A DNA stretch of 48,753 nucleotides from Desulfobacterales bacterium. GTDB taxonomy: Bacteria > Desulfobacterota > Desulfobacteria > Desulfobacterales > JARGFK01. Every line of letters starts with the position of its first letter. Within the stretch, counting starts at the first letter, position 1. The notes under the pieces were generated by a model. The model was not told the DNA's origin. It did not search any database and worked only from the letters and a program-made list of their open reading frames with translations. Both the position numbers and the translations under genes were made by a program. Where the stretch lies: the NCBI GenBank assembly GCA_029211065.1, contig JARGFK010000025.1, positions 1-48,753 on the forward strand. Reading direction: 5' to 3'. Positions 1,340-17,330 of the stretch are shown in pieces.

Positions 1340-2584
1340 ATGAAAAAGTTTTTTGCTTTGATTGTCGTTTTCTTGTTTTGCTTTGCTTTTGTTTCCAACA
1401 GCGCACTTGCTGCCAATCCTGACAAGATAAAAGTCGGCATCCTGCTCCCGCTCACCGGTGTGTTTGGGGCGGTGGCGAAAACCCAGGAAGAAGGCGCGTT
1501 GCTGGCAGTGGATGTTATCAACAACAAGGGCGGACTCAATATGCCCTGGGGCAAGATAAAGGTTGAAGGCGTAGTCGCCGACGACGAGGCCAAACTGGAT
1601 GTGGGTGTACGCCGCTACCGCTACATGGTTGAACAAGGGGTTAAAGGCGTGGGCGGTCAGACCTGGGCGCCGCTCTCTTTTGCCATTAATGCCGTGGTTC
1701 AGAAAGAACCCATGCCGTACTTTCCGGTATGCGTAATGGCAAAGGAAGCCTTTGAAAAGGGAAAACTGGCTGATTCCACCTTTGCAACGGCATTCAGCCC
1801 CTGGACGGTGGGATACATGGGCGGATCAGCGTCGATCAAGGTGCTGGGCAAGAAACGTATTTTCTTTTTAGCCCGCGCCGATAGCTGGGGCTGGGACATC
1901 CGCGACGGTGTGTATGCGGCTGCCAAGGAAAACGGCGCCGAGATCGTCGGATATGACGAAGTCTCCCGGGGAACCAGCGATTATACGACCATTTTGCAGA
2001 AAGTCCGTGCGGCCAAACCGGATGTTTTCATTTCGGCCCAATTTGCCGGTGATGCCGTAGCCCTTTTAAATCAGTGCTATCAGATGGGGCTCAACAAGGA
2101 AATGACCATTTTCAACGCTTTCATCACCAATGTGGTCGCCAAAGGGATTCCGCCCAAGGCATTAGAGGGCGTCTATTCGATGCATTATTTCTATTATGAC
2201 CTTAGCGATTTTGAAGACAAGGAAGTTGCCAAAAGCGCCAAAAAATTTACCGAACTGTACCAGGCGAAATTCAATGCGCCCCCGGATGCCTATGCAACCA
2301 TTGCATACGTTGCCTACATGGAAATGTTCAGAGGGTTTGAAGCAGCCGGGTCGTTTGATCCCAAAAAGGTGTCTGCAGCTCTGATGGCCAACAACGGCCA
2401 GTTTGTCTCGGTTAAGGGCCCGGCTCAATGGCGCCAGGACCATTCAGCGGTTTACAAGTATGCTGCCTTTTTGGTCAGGGGTAAAGGCCCCGATGAGAAA
2501 AAAGGGGAATGGGATCTTTTTAAGGTCATGGGCTATCAGGGCGGCGATTCCGTGATGCCGTCTCTGAAAGAACTCGGTTATTAA
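1340..2584 (+). CDS. ABC transporter substrate-binding protein, branched-chain amino acid (LivJ/LivK) type
   Basis: The 414-residue product starts with a clear Sec signal peptide: MKK, a hydrophobic core to about residue 19, and ALA-A cleavage near residue 24. The mature protein opens with KVGILLPLTGVFG, typical of the periplasmic-binding-protein type 1 fold, and keeps the two-lobe pattern to the end. It captures the ligand in the periplasm for the LivGFMH importer encoded directly downstream. AGGAGG precedes the ATG. The family covers branched-chain amino acids, amides, urea and aromatic acids, and the sequence alone does not show the ligand. It is the first gene of a five-gene operon. Confidence 0.9.
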   Translation: MKKFFALIVVFLFCFAFVSNSALAANPDKIKVGILLPLTGVFGAVAKTQEEGALLAVDVINNKGGLNMPWGKIKVEGVVADDEAKLDVGVRRYRYMVEQGVKGVGGQTWAPLSFAINAVVQKEPMPYFPVCVMAKEAFEKGKLADSTFATAFSPWTVGYMGGSASIKVLGKKRIFFLARADSWGWDIRDGVYAAAKENGAEIVGYDEVSRGTSDYTTILQKVRAAKPDVFISAQFAGDAVALLNQCYQMGLNKEMTIFNAFITNVVAKGIPPKALEGVYSMHYFYYDLSDFEDKEVAKSAKKFTELYQAKFNAPPDAYATIAYVAYMEMFRGFEAAGSFDPKKVSAALMANNGQFVSVKGPAQWRQDHSAVYKYAAFLVRGKGPDEKKGEWDLFKVMGYQGGDSVMPSLKELGY

Positions 2585-2670
2585 ACACCTGAATTGTTCG
2601 AGATTTAGGAAATGAATTTTGCCCCGGCGGGAATGATCCCCCGGGGCAATAACCGGAAAAGGGGCTTGCT

Positions 2671-3483
2671 GTGAGTTCAGGGGCAGAAATCATCAAAACT
2701 GAAAACGTCACCAAGCGGTTCGGCGAAATGATCGCTGTAAACCGTGTCAATTATCGGTTGCATGAAAATGAGGTCGCCGGCATTATCGGGTCGAATGGCG
2801 CCGGGAAGACCACCTTTTTTAATCTTCTGACCGGCTATTATCCGCCGGAAGAGGGGACCATCCACTACAGAGGGAAAAACGTCACCCATTTGTCGCCGCA
2901 GAAACGGGTGGAAATGGGGATGATGCGGACATTTCAACTGACGTCGACTTTCGACAACCTGAAAGTAGTGGACAACCTGGTTTTATCCTTTTATCGGTCA
3001 CATAAAAAACCAACCCTGTCGCACCTCTTTCTGACCACCTGCAAGCGCTTTCGCAAAGAAGAAAAAATCGTTGAAACACTGGAAACCTTCGAACTTCAGG
3101 ATACGGCCGACCGGATGGTCAAGCATCTTAGCCTGGGCGAGAAACGACGGCTGGAAATCGCCATGGCAGTCCTGGCGGAACCCACGGTTTTGCTGTTGGA
3201 TGAACCGCTGGCAGGGCTGGGCGAGTCTGAAATCAAAGGGGTTCTGGAGGTGCTTGCCCGGCAGGCAGGCAAGCAGACGATACTGATTGTGGAACACAAA
3301 ATTTCCCAGGTGGAAAATTTTCTGAAAAGACTTACCGTCATGCATGAAGGCCGCGTCATTGCGGACGGCGACTGCCAGGAATGCCTGCGATCCCCGGAGG
3401 TGCGCCGAAGCTACTGGCAAATCGAGGACATCGCCGATGAAATAGATTCGGCCGTTCCAAAAGGAGGTCCCGACCATGACTAA
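2671..3483 (+). CDS. livG: Branched-chain amino acid ABC transporter ATP-binding protein, LivG type
   Basis: This 270-residue cytoplasmic ATPase has Walker A GSNGAGKTT near residues 36-44, a signature loop LSLGEKRRLE near 151-160, Walker B LLLDEP near 174-179 and the switch histidine in IVEHK. The signature reads LSLGE rather than LSGGQ, a variation common in LivG proteins. Translation begins at GTG. Its last codons overlap the start of the second ATPase, so the two are probably made in equal amounts as the LivG/LivF pair powering uptake. Confidence 0.9.
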   Translation: MSSGAEIIKTENVTKRFGEMIAVNRVNYRLHENEVAGIIGSNGAGKTTFFNLLTGYYPPEEGTIHYRGKNVTHLSPQKRVEMGMMRTFQLTSTFDNLKVVDNLVLSFYRSHKKPTLSHLFLTTCKRFRKEEKIVETLETFELQDTADRMVKHLSLGEKRRLEIAMAVLAEPTVLLLDEPLAGLGESEIKGVLEVLARQAGKQTILIVEHKISQVENFLKRLTVMHEGRVIADGDCQECLRSPEVRRSYWQIEDIADEIDSAVPKGGPDHD

Positions 3484-4168
3484 CGACGATCTGCTGGTGG
3501 TCTCAGACCTGAATGTTTCCTACGGTGAGTCGAAGGTTCTGTTCGATATCAGTCTGAAAGTAAAGCCGAACCAAGTGGTGGCCTGCGTGGGGCGCAACGG
3601 CGCAGGGAAAACTACTCTGCTCCGGAGTATCGCCGGATTTATAAAGCCGACGTCCGGTACGATCTCGGTCAACAATGCCAGCCTGGTGGGAAAGATGTCC
3701 TTTGATGTCGCTAAAATGGGGATCAAGTATATCCCCCAGGACAAGAAAGTTTTTTCGGATTTGACGGTCCGGGAGAATCTGGAGTTGGGAAGCTACGCCA
3801 CAAAGGATTACAACTGGGAGCCGGTCTTCGAATACTTTCCAAAACTGAAGGAACTCATGGATCGAAAGGCCGGATATCTGAGCGGCGGTGAGCGCCAGAT
3901 GCTGATGGTGGGCCGGGCGCTGCTGGGCAATCCGAAAATTTTATTAATTGATGAACCCACCGAGGGATTGGCCCCCAGCATTGTGGCACATATGCAAAAC
4001 GTTTTCAGGGAACTGAGCAAAAAATCGGCCATAGTGATCGTTGAGCAAAACCTGCCATTGGTTTGCGCAATTGCGCATAAGGTATATGCCATTAAAGAAG
4101 GGCGGGTGGTGTCAGAAATTACCGAAGCGGATAAGATTAGAGCCGATGTCTGCGAACTGTATCTTTGA
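3476..4168 (+). CDS. livF: Branched-chain amino acid ABC transporter ATP-binding protein, LivF type
   Basis: This 230-residue ATPase shows Walker A GRNGAGKTT near residue 39, LSGGERQM near 137 and Walker B LLIDEPTEGLAP near 160, the last being characteristic of LivF. It starts eight bases inside livG, with AAGGAGG ahead of the ATG. It pairs with LivG on the cytoplasmic face of the LivM-LivH channel. Length and motifs are normal for the family. Confidence 0.92.
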   Translation: MTNDDLLVVSDLNVSYGESKVLFDISLKVKPNQVVACVGRNGAGKTTLLRSIAGFIKPTSGTISVNNASLVGKMSFDVAKMGIKYIPQDKKVFSDLTVRENLELGSYATKDYNWEPVFEYFPKLKELMDRKAGYLSGGERQMLMVGRALLGNPKILLIDEPTEGLAPSIVAHMQNVFRELSKKSAIVIVEQNLPLVCAIAHKVYAIKEGRVVSEITEADKIRADVCELYL

Positions 4169-4209
4169 TTTTGTTTCGACCCGATAACGGCTGCGAGAGG
4201 AAAATTACG

Positions 4210-5196
4210 ATGATGAACATATTCAGGTGGTGGTGGGGCATCCTGCTGATGTTTTTGTTCTTGGGAGTCTTGAGGATGTTCCTGCCGCTGCCCTTTATGA
4301 ACGAGGTTCTGATCTTTTCGATTTATACCATGGGCTGCAACTTCCTGCTGGGCCGGGTCGGGTTTATTTCTTTCGGTCAGCCGGCCTATCTGGCTGTGGG
4401 GGCATATGCCACCGCTTTTTATCTATTTTACTTCGGCACCAACGCTTATATCGGCATCCTGCTGGGAATTCTGGCCGGCATTGTTGTTTCCGCAGCCATC
4501 GGCCCGTTATTTGTCCGCCTGCGGAGCGATTATTTCGCCCTGGTGAATCTGGCCCTGGCAGTCATCATGTTTTATCTGTTTGAAAAAGTTCTGGCCGGGA
4601 TTACCCATGGCGACAACGGGCTGTGGTTTTTGACCCGAATGTCCAACACCCCCGTCTTGAATCTCGGCAAACACAGCGATTTTTTTATCTTTGTTTTTAT
4701 ATTGGCAATGGCAATCTGGGCATTTTATAAGTATCTGGACGATTCGGTTTACGGCGCCTGCTGTCTGGCCACCAAGATCAATGAAGACAAATTAAAATTT
4801 CTGGGATACGACAGTTTTAAAATCCGCTGGCTGGCGTTTATTATTGCCAACACGACAACTGCGCTGGCAGGCTCCTTATACGCCGTCTATTTCGGTTTTG
4901 TGAGCCCTGATTTTACTAGCCCGCACCGAGCCGCTGATCCGGTGGTGGTGACAATCCTAGGCGGCGTCGGCACACTTTACGGCCCCATTGTGGGCGCCAT
5001 CGCATACACCGGCATGAAGGACCTGGTCAGCGGATATATCGCCAATTGGGAACTTTTTATCGGTCTGCTGCTGGTAATCATCATGCTGGCCGGCGAAAAG
5101 GGGATTTGGGGGACACTGGAGCCTTTACTGGCAAAGATCATTTTTCGGAAACGCACCGGGTCGGGTTTATCTAAGAATGGAGACGAGAGTCTATAA
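4210..5196 (+). CDS. livM: Branched-chain amino acid ABC transporter permease, LivM type
   Basis: A polytopic membrane protein of 328 residues with about eight to ten hydrophobic segments and the LivM block GRVGFISFGQPAYLAVGAYA near residues 45-65. The conserved GGVGTLYGPIVGA stretch near 250 is the loop that contacts the ATPases. The ATG at 4210 is preferred, with GAGAGG nine bases upstream; an earlier in-frame TTG at 4165 overlaps livF but lacks a ribosome site. The stop overlaps the next start (TAATG), so LivM and LivH are translationally coupled. Confidence 0.9.
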   Translation: MMNIFRWWWGILLMFLFLGVLRMFLPLPFMNEVLIFSIYTMGCNFLLGRVGFISFGQPAYLAVGAYATAFYLFYFGTNAYIGILLGILAGIVVSAAIGPLFVRLRSDYFALVNLALAVIMFYLFEKVLAGITHGDNGLWFLTRMSNTPVLNLGKHSDFFIFVFILAMAIWAFYKYLDDSVYGACCLATKINEDKLKFLGYDSFKIRWLAFIIANTTTALAGSLYAVYFGFVSPDFTSPHRAADPVVVTILGGVGTLYGPIVGAIAYTGMKDLVSGYIANWELFIGLLLVIIMLAGEKGIWGTLEPLLAKIIFRKRTGSGLSKNGDESL

Positions 5197-6065
5197 TGGA
5201 TACACAATTATTGATTTCCGGCGTCATTTTCGGGCTGAGTATCGGTAGCATCTTTTTCCTGCTGGCTATCGGTCTGTCCCTTTGTTTCGGGCTGATGCGC
5301 ATCATCAGCCTGGACCAACTGCTCTATTATTCCGTCGGCGCCTACTTGACCTATAGTGTCTGTGCCGTCACCGGGAACGCGTGGATCGGCGTGTTGGTTG
5401 GAATGGCGGTTGCCGGAATCGTCAGCTTCATTGTGGAGCGATTTGTTTTTTTAAGGATTTACGAGCGTGACATTACCTTTACCATGGTTGCCTCTTTCGG
5501 GATTCTCTTTGCCGGTATCGGCGTCATCAAGTATATCTGGGGACTGGCTCCCCGGCCGGTTCCCATCCCGATAGAAATGCAGACCACCATTTTTGGTACT
5601 GAGATTCCTGTTTACCGCTTGATCGTCGTGGCCATTTCCCTGCTGGTCTATGGCGGCATCTGGCTTTTTTTGAACCGGACCATTACCGGCAAGGCCATCC
5701 GCGCCGGGATTGAGGATATCGATCATGTTGAAGGGCTCGGCATTAACGTTTACAGACTCTTCACCGTTACCTTCATTATTGCCGGAACCTTGTCCGGTCT
5801 GGCAGGGGGGCTGCATGCGCCCCTGATCATGGTGGATCCGGTCATGGGGCTCGAGGTGCTGCCGTTTGTATTTATGGTCGTCATCATCGGGGGATTGGGC
5901 AGCATCAAAGGAACCCTGGTCTCGGCTTTTCTGGTGGGGCAGGTCATATCGATCGGCTCCCTTATCTACGCGCCGCTGGCGCAGATGGCGCCGTTTGCCA
6001 TCATGCTGCTGATTCTGCTGATCAAGCCCACCGGTCTATACGGCAGCAAGCTGTTGAAGCGTTAG
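5196..6065 (+). CDS. livH: Branched-chain amino acid ABC transporter permease, LivH type
   Basis: This 289-residue membrane protein begins with GVIFGLSIGSIFFLLAIGLS, the standard LivH first helix, and carries GGLGSIKGTLVSAFLVG near residue 230, the ATPase-coupling loop. It forms the transmembrane channel with LivM and is the last gene of the operon. No convincing terminator follows; the next 120 bases lead into the repeat region at 6160-6400. Confidence 0.92.
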   Translation: MDTQLLISGVIFGLSIGSIFFLLAIGLSLCFGLMRIISLDQLLYYSVGAYLTYSVCAVTGNAWIGVLVGMAVAGIVSFIVERFVFLRIYERDITFTMVASFGILFAGIGVIKYIWGLAPRPVPIPIEMQTTIFGTEIPVYRLIVVAISLLVYGGIWLFLNRTITGKAIRAGIEDIDHVEGLGINVYRLFTVTFIIAGTLSGLAGGLHAPLIMVDPVMGLEVLPFVFMVVIIGGLGSIKGTLVSAFLVGQVISIGSLIYAPLAQMAPFAIMLLILLIKPTGLYGSKLLKR

Positions 6066-6470: not shown

Positions 6471-7694
6471 TTATACAACGAGACAATCGGCCACCAGCTC
6501 CCAGAGATATTTTACTTCCAGATGCGGCAGGTGGTATTCTTCCTTGAGCGAATGGATCTGGCTGTGGCAGCTGTGACAGGGCACCACAACCGTGTTCGCG
6601 CCTGAAGCGCGGATCTGTTCTATTTTTCTCCTGCCATAGAAGATTCGCTCCGGGTTATACCCGGTGGTCAAGGCGCCGCCGCCGCCGCCGCAACAGAACT
6701 GATCGTGTCTGTCGGGATACAGATCCACCCATTCCTCGACACAATGATCCATTATCCAGCGCGGTTCTTCATAATAGCCGTGGCCGAATTTTTTTTCAGC
6801 ATTGCGGGTATAGTTACAGGGATCATGATAGGTGGCTACCCCCTTGAAGCGGGAACGATCCAGCCGGATTCTGCCCTCCGTGATATATTTGATCAGCAGG
6901 TCGAAAACCGTAAACGTTCCGAAGCGCTGCAACGACTCCGGATACCATTTTTCGAGACCGGACCTGGTCGCGAGATAGGCGTGGCCTCACTCGCACCACA
7001 GGAGATTTTTTGCCGCTAAATGGCGCATATGTTCGGCAATGCGGCCGGTCATGATTTTAAGCGCGTCGTCATCCCCGGTAAAGTATCCCCAGCTGCAGCC
7101 TTCCCAATTCTCGGATGGGACTGTCCAGCTTTCTCCGGCGGCATAAAAAATTTTCCACCAGTGCTTCAGGTCTTCGGTATGGGTGTTGACAAGCTTATTG
7201 TGGACCGTCGTTAATATGTTGCTGCCGGGTTGATCAATGGGGACCGTAAAACCCTCAAAACCTGGCTCTGCGGCAATTTCTTCAGCCACGTCCGCCAGGA
7301 TGAAAACAAAATCTTCGGTGGGAATGCCGAGATTGTTGCCGGTCTTCAGCGCAGTGGTCAACCCCTTGTGAAGTATGCCCGGCACCTTGTCGCGGTCCCG
7401 CAGGGACCGGATCGAGTGAACCATCTCGGCGATATCGATATCCATGGGGCAGACCTGAACGCATTTGGCGCACATGGTGCAAATCCACGGCCAGCGTGCT
7501 TCGACGAGTTCATCCGCCTGGCCAAGATTGACCATGCGAACCAGTTTGCGCGGGTCAAACCCGTCAACGCCGGCCACCGGGCAGGAACCGGCGCAGAGAC
7601 CACAGGCCAGGCAGGTTTCCTGGGAAAACGGCCATAACCTGAAACGATCATGGGATGTCCGGTTAAGATTGATGACTGTTTTTGTTTCTTCCAT
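6471..7694 (-). CDS. HdrD-like iron-sulfur (CCG-domain) subunit, probable selenoprotein with in-frame UGA
   Basis: Reading through one UGA at 6989-6987 gives a 407-residue protein of HdrD/GlpC layout. Two 4Fe-4S motifs come first, CLACGLCAGSCP at 28-39 and CTMCAKCVQVCP at 72-83. A first CCG domain then ends in WCE-Sec-GHAY, with Sec at residue 236. A second CCG domain carries DPCNYTR, FCCGGGGG and PCHSCHSQ. Cys homologues carry ECGHA at the Sec site, so Sec would replace a cluster-binding cysteine of the first CCG domain. The frame, the domain order and codon use continue across the UGA, and no plausible restart site follows it. A SECIS-like hairpin lies just downstream. The ATG at 7694 has GAGGCGG upstream. 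It probably works with the two preceding flavoproteins in thiol/disulfide or electron-bifurcating chemistry; the substrate is unknown. Confidence 0.85.
6952..6973 (-). promoter_or_regulatory. Putative bacterial SECIS hairpin
   Basis: In the mRNA, 13 bases after the UGA, UCGCGACC pairs with GGUCUCGA: four base pairs, one C-U mismatch, then three more pairs. The six-base loop AGGUCC starts 22 bases after the UGA. That is within the spacing known for bacterial SECIS elements, and the loop carries the GGU expected for SelB binding. It differs by one base from the AGGUCU loop of E. coli fdhF. The hairpin lies inside the coding sequence, as bacterial SECIS elements do. Confidence 0.75.
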
Positions 7695-7764
7695 ATCAAA
7701 CCGCCTCATTTTAATAGCCAACCCTTTAGAAAAATGAACTTCTGTCAGAATTCGAAATTCGGGT

Positions 7765-11132: not shown

Positions 11133-12122
11133 ATGAATGCAAAAATAAAAAAAACAAGTAAAAAAAACAATAAGTTAGAGAAATCCGATTTTCTTGTTTC
11201 TGATAAAAATGGCCGGAAATCCGGCAGCCCGGCTTCCGACAAGTCTCTGGTCAAGTATGATCCTCTCCAGCGATATTTACAAGAAATTTCGAGATATAAA
11301 CTGCTTACCCGGGAAGATGAAGTCGAACTGGCCAAAAGGGTTCGTGAGGAAAATGATCTGGATGCAGCCTATATCCTGGTCACTTCAAATTTGAGGCTGG
11401 TTGTAAAAATCGCACTGGAATTTCAGCGGGTTTGGATGCAGAATCTTTTGGATTTGATCCAGGAGGGAAATATCGGTCTGATGCAGGCGGTTAAGAAATT
11501 CGATCCCTACAAAAATGTAAAATTTTCCTACTATTCTTCTTTCTGGATCAAGGCCTATATCCTGAAATTCATCATGGATAACTGGCGTTTGGTTAAAATC
11601 GGGACTACCCAGGGGCAACGAAAGTTATTTTTCAAACTGAAAAAGGAAAAACAGAGTTTAATTGACCAGGGGTTTGATCCGAAGCCGAAGCTTCTCTCCG
11701 AGCGGTTGGGTGTTTCGGAACGGGAGATTGTGGATATGGATCAGCGTCTGGATGCCTGGGATGTATCCCTGGATGCTCCCTTAAAAGAAGATTCGGATAC
11801 TGAAAGAATCGAATTTCTGAGTACGGAGGCTGATTCGGCTGAGGATAAAGTTGCCAAGAAGGAAATGCAGGTATTGCTGCATACTAAGATCGATGAATTT
11901 AAGAAGAACTTATCCAAAAGAGAGCTCGAGATATTTAATTTGCGAATTTTTTCAGATAATCCGGTAACGTTGCAGGATATTGGGGATCGCTACGGCATAT
12001 CCAGAGAGCGGGTTCGCCAGGTTGAAAAGAGCGTGATCAAGAAAATGAGAGGATTTTTTAAGGAAGAGTTGCCGGATTTTCATTCATACACCGAAGACGG
12101 TGAAAGAGAAATTACCGAATGA
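11133..12122 (+). CDS. rpoH: RNA polymerase sigma factor, RpoH (sigma-32) type
   Basis: This 329-residue protein has a lysine-rich N-terminus of about 45 residues. Region 1.2 follows (DPLQRYLQEISRYKLLTREDE), then region 2 (NLRLVVKIALEF, DLIQEGNIGLMQAVKKFD, FSYYSSFWIKAYI). The RpoH box QRKLFFKLKK lies near residue 164, and region 4 carries DIGDRYGISRERVRQVE. The RpoH box separates it from RpoD and RpoS. It would direct polymerase to heat-shock or stress promoters. No clear ribosome site precedes the ATG. Its stop overlaps the start of the TPR lipoprotein (ATGA), so the two are co-translated. Whether it is the only RpoH in the cell cannot be told. Confidence 0.85.
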   Translation: MNAKIKKTSKKNNKLEKSDFLVSDKNGRKSGSPASDKSLVKYDPLQRYLQEISRYKLLTREDEVELAKRVREENDLDAAYILVTSNLRLVVKIALEFQRVWMQNLLDLIQEGNIGLMQAVKKFDPYKNVKFSYYSSFWIKAYILKFIMDNWRLVKIGTTQGQRKLFFKLKKEKQSLIDQGFDPKPKLLSERLGVSEREIVDMDQRLDAWDVSLDAPLKEDSDTERIEFLSTEADSAEDKVAKKEMQVLLHTKIDEFKKNLSKRELEIFNLRIFSDNPVTLQDIGDRYGISRERVRQVEKSVIKKMRGFFKEELPDFHSYTEDGEREITE

Positions 12123-16172: not shown

Positions 16173-17330
16173 ATGGACGTCGATCTTGAGAAAATTCATG
16201 AAAGTTTGAATCAGCGGGAAAAAAGGACGTTGTCCCCTCATGCGGCTTACAGCTCTCAGGCGGTCCGGCGCCGTCCGGAAGACCAGTTGGAAAGAGGGTA
16301 TCGACAGGCTTTCTCAGTGGATGCGGACCGGATTCTGCATTCCCTGGCCTATACCCGTTATATTGACAAGACCCAGGTCTTTTATCTGATCCAAAATGAC
16401 CACATCACCCACCGGGTGCTTCATGTTCAACTGGTATCAAAGATTGCCAGAACCATCGGCCGTTTTTTAGGATTAAATGAGGATCTGATCGAGGCCATCG
16501 CCCTTGCGCACGATATCGGCCATACCCCCTTCGGGCATGACGGCGAACGAATTTTAGCGGAATTGTGCCATGGGCACGGCATCGGGAATTTTCATCATAA
16601 CCTCCAGAGTGTTCAATTCCTGGACAAGGTTGAACGAAAGGGAAGAGGGTGGAATTTATGCCTCCAGACCCTTGACGGCATCCTTTGCCATGACGGCGAA
16701 ATACATGATCAAAAACTTGAACCAGTAAAGTATAAGACTTTTGAATTACTTGAAAAAGAAATTATATACAAAAAGGATAATCCCGGAACAAAATTGATTC
16801 CCATGACCCTGGAAGGGTGCGTGGTCCGTATGGCGGATACCATCAGCTACATCGGTCGTGATCTGGAAGATGCCATTCGGCTGGGGATGATTCAGCGATC
16901 TGATATTCCCCGGGAATGTGTTCAGCGTCTGGGAAATACGAATGGGACCATCGTTTACAACCTGGTCACGGATGTCATCACAAACAGTTTCGAAAAAAAC
17001 CACACGGCCTTCAGCGGGGAGGTGTCCACAGCCCTGCAGGCGTTAAAGGCGTTTAACTTAGAACACATCTATCTGAACCCCAAAATAAAAAATCATTTGG
17101 AAATTATCCGGCGATTGTTTGAAATGCTTTTTGATCGATATCTTAACGATCTGAAAAATCGCAACCTCTCGTCGGTAATTTTTACCCAATTCCTTGAAGA
17201 TATTTCCGACACCTACCTGACAAATCACACCCATGCGGAAATTGTCAGGGATTTCATGGCCGGTATGACCGATCACTATTTTCTGCGATTGTGTCCGGAG
17301 GATATGCGGCCGGCGTATCGGATTTTATAA
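16173..17330 (+). CDS. dgt: dGTP triphosphohydrolase-like HD protein
   Basis: This 385-residue protein opens with the conserved SPHAAYSSQAVRRRPED and DADRILHSLAYTRYIDKTQVF blocks. It carries the HD metal site THRVLHVQLV...AHDIGHTPFGHDGE (residues about 73-125), the FHHNLQSVQFLD helix, and HDGE...MADTISYIGRDLEDA. The family hydrolyses dNTPs to nucleoside and triphosphate, controlling nucleotide pools and phage defence. GGAG lies nine bases before the ATG. It is somewhat shorter than E. coli Dgt but of normal size for the type found across anaerobes. Confidence 0.88.
   Translation: MDVDLEKIHESLNQREKRTLSPHAAYSSQAVRRRPEDQLERGYRQAFSVDADRILHSLAYTRYIDKTQVFYLIQNDHITHRVLHVQLVSKIARTIGRFLGLNEDLIEAIALAHDIGHTPFGHDGERILAELCHGHGIGNFHHNLQSVQFLDKVERKGRGWNLCLQTLDGILCHDGEIHDQKLEPVKYKTFELLEKEIIYKKDNPGTKLIPMTLEGCVVRMADTISYIGRDLEDAIRLGMIQRSDIPRECVQRLGNTNGTIVYNLVTDVITNSFEKNHTAFSGEVSTALQALKAFNLEHIYLNPKIKNHLEIIRRLFEMLFDRYLNDLKNRNLSSVIFTQFLEDISDTYLTNHTHAEIVRDFMAGMTDHYFLRLCPEDMRPAYRIL

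Follow-up and report, generated by a model that had tools for sequence, protein, structure and literature searches.

A predicted selenocysteine-containing HdrD-like protein encoded with HdrA/QmoA- and HdrA/QmoB-like proteins in a Desulfobacterales bacterium

The stretch of DNA analysed here (the window) spans all 48,753 nucleotides from 1 to 48,753 of contig JARGFK010000025.1, from Desulfobacterales bacterium assembly GCA_029211065.1. Its minus strand carries a single reading frame, 7694-6471, interrupted by one TGA at 6989-6987, codon 236; translation could alternatively start at 7709, on an in-frame ATG, instead of at 7694. Reading the frame confirmed the initial annotation, which had described two open stretches joined in the same frame by this UGA. 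It had also expected ordinary gene calling to split or truncate the gene, and a plain ORF listing does give two pieces, 7721-6987 and 6932-6471. Across both strands, only two TGA codons in the window have open stretches of 100 codons or more both before and after them. We discounted the other one, at 16407 on the minus strand, because a 385-aa ORF runs antisense to it. Translation with read-through gives a 407-aa product with U236 in the context WCE-U-GHAY. As in methanogen-type HdrD, an HdrC-like dicluster domain is fused to an HdrB-like part. The two complete CCG motifs of methanogen-type HdrD and of HdrB were not found in this product: the second motif is complete, and the first keeps residue 236 only. 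The gene is the last of three, following genes for an HdrA/QmoA-like protein and an HdrA/QmoB-like protein with an FlpD domain, in that order (Table 1).

Table 1. Coordinates of the HdrD-like gene, its internal features and the two genes upstream of it in the operon
Feature	Position in window	Strand	Basis or remark
hdrD-like gene, HdrC-HdrB fusion, 407 aa with predicted Sec236	6471..7694	-	TAA stop included; Pfam CCG and Fer4_8
In-frame UGA, predicted to be read as selenocysteine, residue 236	6987..6989	-	TGA in 80/80 named loci; Sec/Cys column
Bacterial SECIS-like hairpin, loop AGGUCC at 6965-6960	6952..6973	-	Fold and codon resampling
HdrC-like dicluster ferredoxin domain, residues 26-87	7434..7619	-	Pfam; eight Cys, residues 28-82, invariant in 21 aligned sequences
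Second CCG domain, residues 288-380	6555..6833	-	Noncubane [4Fe-4S] Cys complete: C293, C334, C335, C373, C376
HdrA N-terminal/QmoA-like FAD protein, 430 aa	9347..10639	-	Overlaps next gene by 17 bases
HdrA C-terminal/QmoB-like protein with FlpD (MvhD) domain, 532 aa	7765..9363	-	Without in-frame TGA

Genes for a branched-chain amino acid/urea-type ABC transporter (1340-6065, plus strand) converge on hdrD, and an RpoH-like sigma factor is encoded at 11133-12122 on the plus strand; in one homologous locus (L111) the operon is preceded by the same neighbour, with 82% identity. Promoter-like sites numbered 10 against 4.9 expected (sd 2.3) and terminator-like sites 6 against 6.9. None of either kind could be attributed to the operon.

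We looked for the interrupting codon in homologues. TGA was present at the matching codon in 80 of 80 named loci, which are the best 80 of 286 homologous loci in the genome collection and hence biased to close relatives (58-73% identity to the window protein); the locus scan used two patterns, one of them the Cys-coded motif. One of the 80 (L119) comes from an Olavius algarvensis symbiont. In 57 other genomes of the same order, all 20 matches of at least 44% identity had exactly one internal TGA, each within EUGHAY. Counted over 148 distinct homologous sequences, with the window's own gene excluded, the residue-236 column held Sec 126 times, Cys 22 times and nothing else; dropping alignments of fewer than 300 query residues and identical sequences had reduced the set from 173 to 149, the window's gene included. 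Merging at 97% identity left 145 clusters, 123 with Sec and 22 with Cys. The Cys column that the initial annotation had suggested looking for at this residue is thus present among the homologues. Orthologues picked deliberately for having no stop read PECGHAYY or PQCGHAYY, with codon TGC or TGT (L163-L170), or PDCGG (L171-L177).

One residue next to the codon is unusual in the window, where the context is WCE; homologues have WPE, and all 80 named loci carry Pro where the window has C234. Such an oddity is what one might see in a pseudogene, or where an assembly or sequencing error had turned a Cys codon into an apparent UGA. We rejected this explanation, as exceedingly improbable, on the recurrence of TGA in the 80 other loci and in the 20 same-order matches, on the conservation of the hairpin and on the presence of sel genes, both described below. 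For practical purposes the 80 loci exclude the sequencing error that the initial annotation had itself raised as an objection.

The UGA could also encode some other amino acid under a changed genetic code, or the two stretches could be made as separate polypeptides by termination and restart. The initial annotation had stated that no restart codon with a ribosome site follows the UGA. This was only partly right: the first in-frame start, TTG at 6932, does have GGAG 3 bases upstream, at a spacing so poor that the site is only ribosome-like. A restart there would fall after the conserved block UGHAYLATR. Where the column is not UGA it is always Cys, never Trp, Gly or another residue, on which ground we rejected a changed code; the genome also encodes tRNA-Sec and SelA, SelB and SelD. 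Either of these alternatives is very improbable.

Downstream of the UGA the window folds as.(((.((((......)))).))), with loop AGGUCC. The initial annotation had placed a hairpin with this loop, which it likened to the SECIS loop AGGUCU of E. coli fdhF, 22 bases after the UGA; hairpin and loop are there, and 22 nt is the distance to the loop, the stem starting at 14 nt. Taken alone the window hairpin is modestly unusual, since 4% of 200 synonymous shuffles give an equally good fold. A longer segment, of 71 nt and beginning 11 nt before the UGA, folds stably (z -2.75), though with another pairing preferred. Comparison across genes was more telling. In a set of 88 (the window, the 80 named loci and L023-L029), a 4-bp hairpin core occurred in 84, against an average of 6.6% under resampling that redraws synonymous codons mainly from each gene's own usage. 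The core is formed in one of two pairing registers, A in 67 genes and B in 17, the latter displaced by a single base and associated with GGG; the remaining 4 of the 88 lack it in either register. The register-A loop-closing pair is A-U in 38 genes and C-G in 19, which makes 57 paired out of 81; in the other 24, which include the window, it is unpaired. Eleven of these 24 unpaired positions are C-C, many of them from register-B genes. Codon choice beneath the hairpin was skewed in the same 88 genes: Thr was ACC in 88/88, Arg was AGG in 50 and CGG in 38, and Gly was GGT in 67, GGG in 19 and GGC in 2. Elsewhere in 81 of those genes ACC makes up 56% of Thr codons, AGG and CGG 9.5% and 24.6% of Arg codons, and GGC is the commonest Gly codon. 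Judged by the resampling, the hairpin is conserved beyond coding constraint.

The machinery for selenocysteine insertion is encoded in the same genome. Only sel matches over the family cut-offs were counted, weak matches being common in 14 control genomes. SelB scored 391.6 bits (cut-off 242.25), SelA 610.3 bits (cut-off 267.9) and tRNA-Sec 77.2 bits (gathering score 47), the last with anticodon TCA (UCA). Three selD genes exceeded the cut-off of 125, each with one internal in-frame TGA (L048-L050, at G000:C7:48811-49737, G000:C26:15131-16048 and G000:C37:30071-30988). All four of the genes selA, selB, selC and selD that the initial annotation had proposed to look for are therefore present over cut-off. 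Among the 14 control genomes, over-cut-off matches were found to selB in 2, to selA in 1, to selD in 2 and to tRNA-Sec in 5. SelB also exceeded its cut-off in 19 of 20 other genomes carrying the Sec orthologue; G031, where the TGA gene is present and the draft assembly is fragmented (about 1,210 contigs), gave no SelB. Five genomes (G264, G385, G367, G013 and G017) each encode two SelB-like proteins that exceed the family cut-off.

Phylogeny put the window protein inside an all-Sec clade of 38 rows (SH-aLRT 98) in a tree of 89 rows, for which U was masked as X and C was kept in the Cys rows. Sec and Cys changed places at least five times on the tree, mostly in a sister clade where both are mixed, a pattern that fits repeated Sec-Cys exchange in either direction. 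Outgroup branches are long and their joins are flagged. Loss of the Sec machinery as the cause of the Cys versions was unsupported: of 14 genomes that have a Cys version, 13 encode a SelB over the cut-off, and the remaining one (G005) gave a hit of 219.8 bits, below it. Six of these 14 genomes (G306, G422, G367, G264, G385 and G308) have a TGA copy as well. Since Cys versions occur in the 13 SelB-bearing genomes, Sec is dispensable for fold or function. A second Sec HdrD paralogue, at L181:9066-10205, has 34.5% identity and the motif NTEUGH, and is encoded immediately ahead of the HdrA-like gene in the same operon.

Because codon conservation, sel machinery, hairpin and phylogeny agree, UGA236 almost certainly encodes selenocysteine and the gene is almost certainly an intact selenoprotein gene. 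The proposal of the initial annotation that the HdrD-like protein is a selenoprotein is supported, and the observations it had named as able to overturn it came out against refutation.

The gene order recurs. An FlpD gene lies within 2 kb upstream of hdrD in 71 of the 80 named loci. Of the nine without one, four hold less than 1.2 kb of upstream sequence, and five hold enough (L056, L070, L128, L130 and L132). No more than 5 kb upstream, 58 of the 80 loci have a gene for the FAD protein, as do 55 of the 60 with more than about 3 kb of upstream sequence. Cluster ligands in both partners are complete, and conserved too. With loci left out whose ORF aligned too briefly, all 62 aligned homologues of the FlpD protein keep Cys 408, 437, 462 and 467 and the eight ferredoxin Cys (333-371), and all 33 of the FAD protein keep Cys 66, 72, 75, 78, 251, 264 and 269. 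Two ferredoxin clusters, at window-protein residues 126-173, are missing in 9 or 10 of the 33 HdrA1-like homologues. The window's HdrA-like and FlpD genes have no Sec, and in-frame TGA codons in the homologues examined are sporadic or terminal except at L130 and L132; there the upstream FlpD domain reads CCTWU, with a second Sec at the position of a Ser in the window. From the conserved gene order and cluster ligands it is quite likely that the three products form one complex.

A small protein recurs near these operons, as 22 ORFs in 21 of 81 loci (for example L121:4402-4917), the window having no member. Fifteen of the 22 begin 3.1-5.3 kb ahead of hdrD, close to or before the point where the HdrA-like gene begins; five others sit immediately downstream of hdrD. 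The protein from L121, a locus of Desulfosarcina alkanivorans PL12, matches the PocR sensory domain.

The HdrD-like protein might instead be a disulfide reductase of a sulfur pathway, of the DsrK/HmcF/TmcB type, serving DsrC or a membrane complex rather than HdrA-like partners. Its nearest NCBIfam models are indeed HmcF, TmcB and DsrK, and the HmcF of the same genome, which passes its cut-off (808.5 against 750 bits), has Cys at the matching position (ECGHA). This HmcF is consistent with the organism being a sulfate reducer. The best scores of the read-through product itself are far under the equivalog cut-offs (HmcF 196.2 of 750, TmcB 163 of 735 and DsrK 136.5 of 400 bits), and it is assigned to none of the three. 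The adjoining genes are HdrA/QmoAB-like, and no HdrE-, QmoC- or DsrM-like membrane subunit was found among the ten window neighbours scanned; aprBA was likewise missing from these ten. We consider a sulfur-pathway role of this kind unlikely.

An AlphaFold2 model of the HdrD-like protein had a mean pLDDT of 84.9. Its best structural match was EtfD of M. smegmatis (Z 24.5 over 364 residues, 2.6 Å, 19% identity), followed by 3kwl, an H. pylori hypothetical protein (19.7), LutA (19.5) and HdrB chains (18.3-19.4); matches at Z below 7 were taken as generic folds. The first CCG domain of EtfD is described as holding a linear [3Fe-4S] cluster by Cys503, 538, 581 and 584, and the second as holding a noncubane [4Fe-4S] cluster by Cys637, 672, 673, 709 and 712 together with His583 (PMC13083937). 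In a profile (HMM) alignment, the run U236, G237, H238 and A239 matched EtfD Cys581, Pro582, His583 and Cys584, and G157 and W190 matched Cys503 and Cys538. Three of the four first-cluster ligands are therefore gone, and the fourth is the predicted Sec. By contrast, C293, C334, C335, C373 and C376 matched Cys637, 672, 673, 709 and 712, so that with His238 the six-ligand set of the noncubane cluster is kept. Between residues 83 and 292, residue 236 is the sole invariant Cys/Sec in 21 aligned sequences.

The first-CCG cluster is probably absent, because three of its four ligands are missing. The initial annotation had supposed that Sec directly alters the cluster of this domain, which is unlikely given Gly157, Trp190 and Ala239 at the positions of Cys503, 538 and 584. 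Such a cluster, ligated by selenium from Sec236 and by other residues and resembling the linear [3Fe-4S] of EtfD or the first noncubane cluster of HdrB, would draw on the match of U236 to a true ligand, Cys581, and on two extra Cys nearby, C200 and C234. Among the 80 named loci, only L095 and L131 share C200, and C234 is the residue that is Pro in all 80. Together with the three substituted positions and the lack of another invariant Cys in the region, this makes a selenium-ligated first cluster quite unlikely.

The simplest reading is that the HdrD-like subunit would contain two cubane clusters and one noncubane cluster, with the selenol two residues from a His ligand. On the alignment to EtfD, a distant homologue, we lean towards Sec236 being a redox-active residue beside the noncubane cluster. 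A more specific version may be put forward tentatively: in this clade the degenerate CCG domain might have lost its own cluster, its last ligand being now a free Sec paired with the His-ligated noncubane [4Fe-4S]. As part of a soluble complex like QmoAB-HdrD, the pair would catalyse two-electron chemistry of the disulfide type. UGH would then be a conserved active-site signature and not a cluster ligand.

A working mechanism can be outlined. SelB, bound to the hairpin after the UGA, would deliver Sec-tRNA(Sec), and the ribosome would place Sec at residue 236. The soluble HdrD-like subunit would join the HdrA/QmoA-like flavoprotein and the HdrA/QmoB-like FlpD protein in a cytoplasmic electron-transfer complex of the QmoAB-HdrD type. 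Electrons may pass between the [2Fe-2S] of FlpD, the FAD and ferredoxin clusters in the HdrA-like proteins, the two HdrD cubanes and the single noncubane [4Fe-4S]. In the degenerate first CCG domain, Sec236 would stand in for the lone surviving Cys. His238, predicted to be the sixth noncubane ligand, is two residues away, and the selenol would most likely be redox-active in two-electron, thiol/disulfide-like chemistry. We take the combination of a selenoprotein gene, a three-gene complex and a Sec beside the noncubane cluster to be highly likely as the best overall explanation of the locus.

An Fe-S oxidoreductase-like selenoprotein family is reportedly due to Kryukov and Gladyshev in 2004. 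It has been described as an 'Fe-S oxidoreductase-like protein' with motif UGH, in PTHR43551, whose gene in Deltaproteobacteria can join the selenoprotein genes frhA-frhD-hdrA (PMC13188914), and it has been filed as COG0247 GlpC (PMC9312934). By motif, domain and description the window protein is like this family, being a CCG-type Fe-S protein with UGH at 236-238 and the Pfam CCG domain. The operon differs from the described frhA-frhD-hdrA arrangement in that its HdrA-like and FlpD genes lack Sec. An Fe-S oxidoreductase is also among the Sec proteins reported for a marine deltaproteobacterium (PMC8318568), and HdrD4 of Desulfobacterium autotrophicum HRM2 is given as a selenoprotein (PMC2702500); going by that description, it too is a soluble HdrD-type selenoprotein of a sulfate reducer. 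The excerpted text on Desulfococcus multivorans lists five Sec genes, none of them HdrD (PMC5109826), and that on the Sargasso Sea selenoprotein families includes no Fe-S oxidoreductase of the UGH/HdrD kind (PMC1088965).

A soluble QmoAB-HdrD-type complex has been reported for some Deltaproteobacteria (PMC10504309). The window operon resembles QmoAB-HdrD and HdrABC, as far as these are outlined in PMC10504309 and PMC2702500, in gene order only: one operon encodes an HdrA-like FAD protein, another HdrA-like protein that carries FlpD, and a fusion of HdrC with HdrB. It differs from them in the Sec and the single complete CCG motif of its HdrD member, and in having no aprBA among the neighbours scanned. 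With EtfD (9ojn) the protein shares, by alignment, the noncubane [4Fe-4S] ligand set, including the His of the CxH motif. It is unlike EtfD in having Sec in place of Cys581 of the linear [3Fe-4S], in missing the other three ligands and in lacking a membrane part.

The HdrD-like Sec protein probably joins a selenoprotein family already known in these anaerobes, and as a kind it is not new. In the part of the open-licence literature consulted we found no placing of a Sec236-type residue against the EtfD or HdrB clusters and no one-base sliding of a SECIS element. Papers joining a selenoprotein with DsrK, or DsrK with a noncubane cluster, were not found in that literature.

Since a plain ORF listing splits the gene, what is likely an electron-transfer subunit may be annotated as fragments in many uncultured Desulfobacterales-type genomes. 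The locus also offers a testable site, where a predicted Sec would take the place of one ligand of a cluster presumably lost. It lies two residues away from the His that is predicted to bind the noncubane cluster. Cys and Sec versions both exist, sometimes in one genome (as in G306 and G422), so the contribution of selenium to noncubane-cluster chemistry should be directly measurable.
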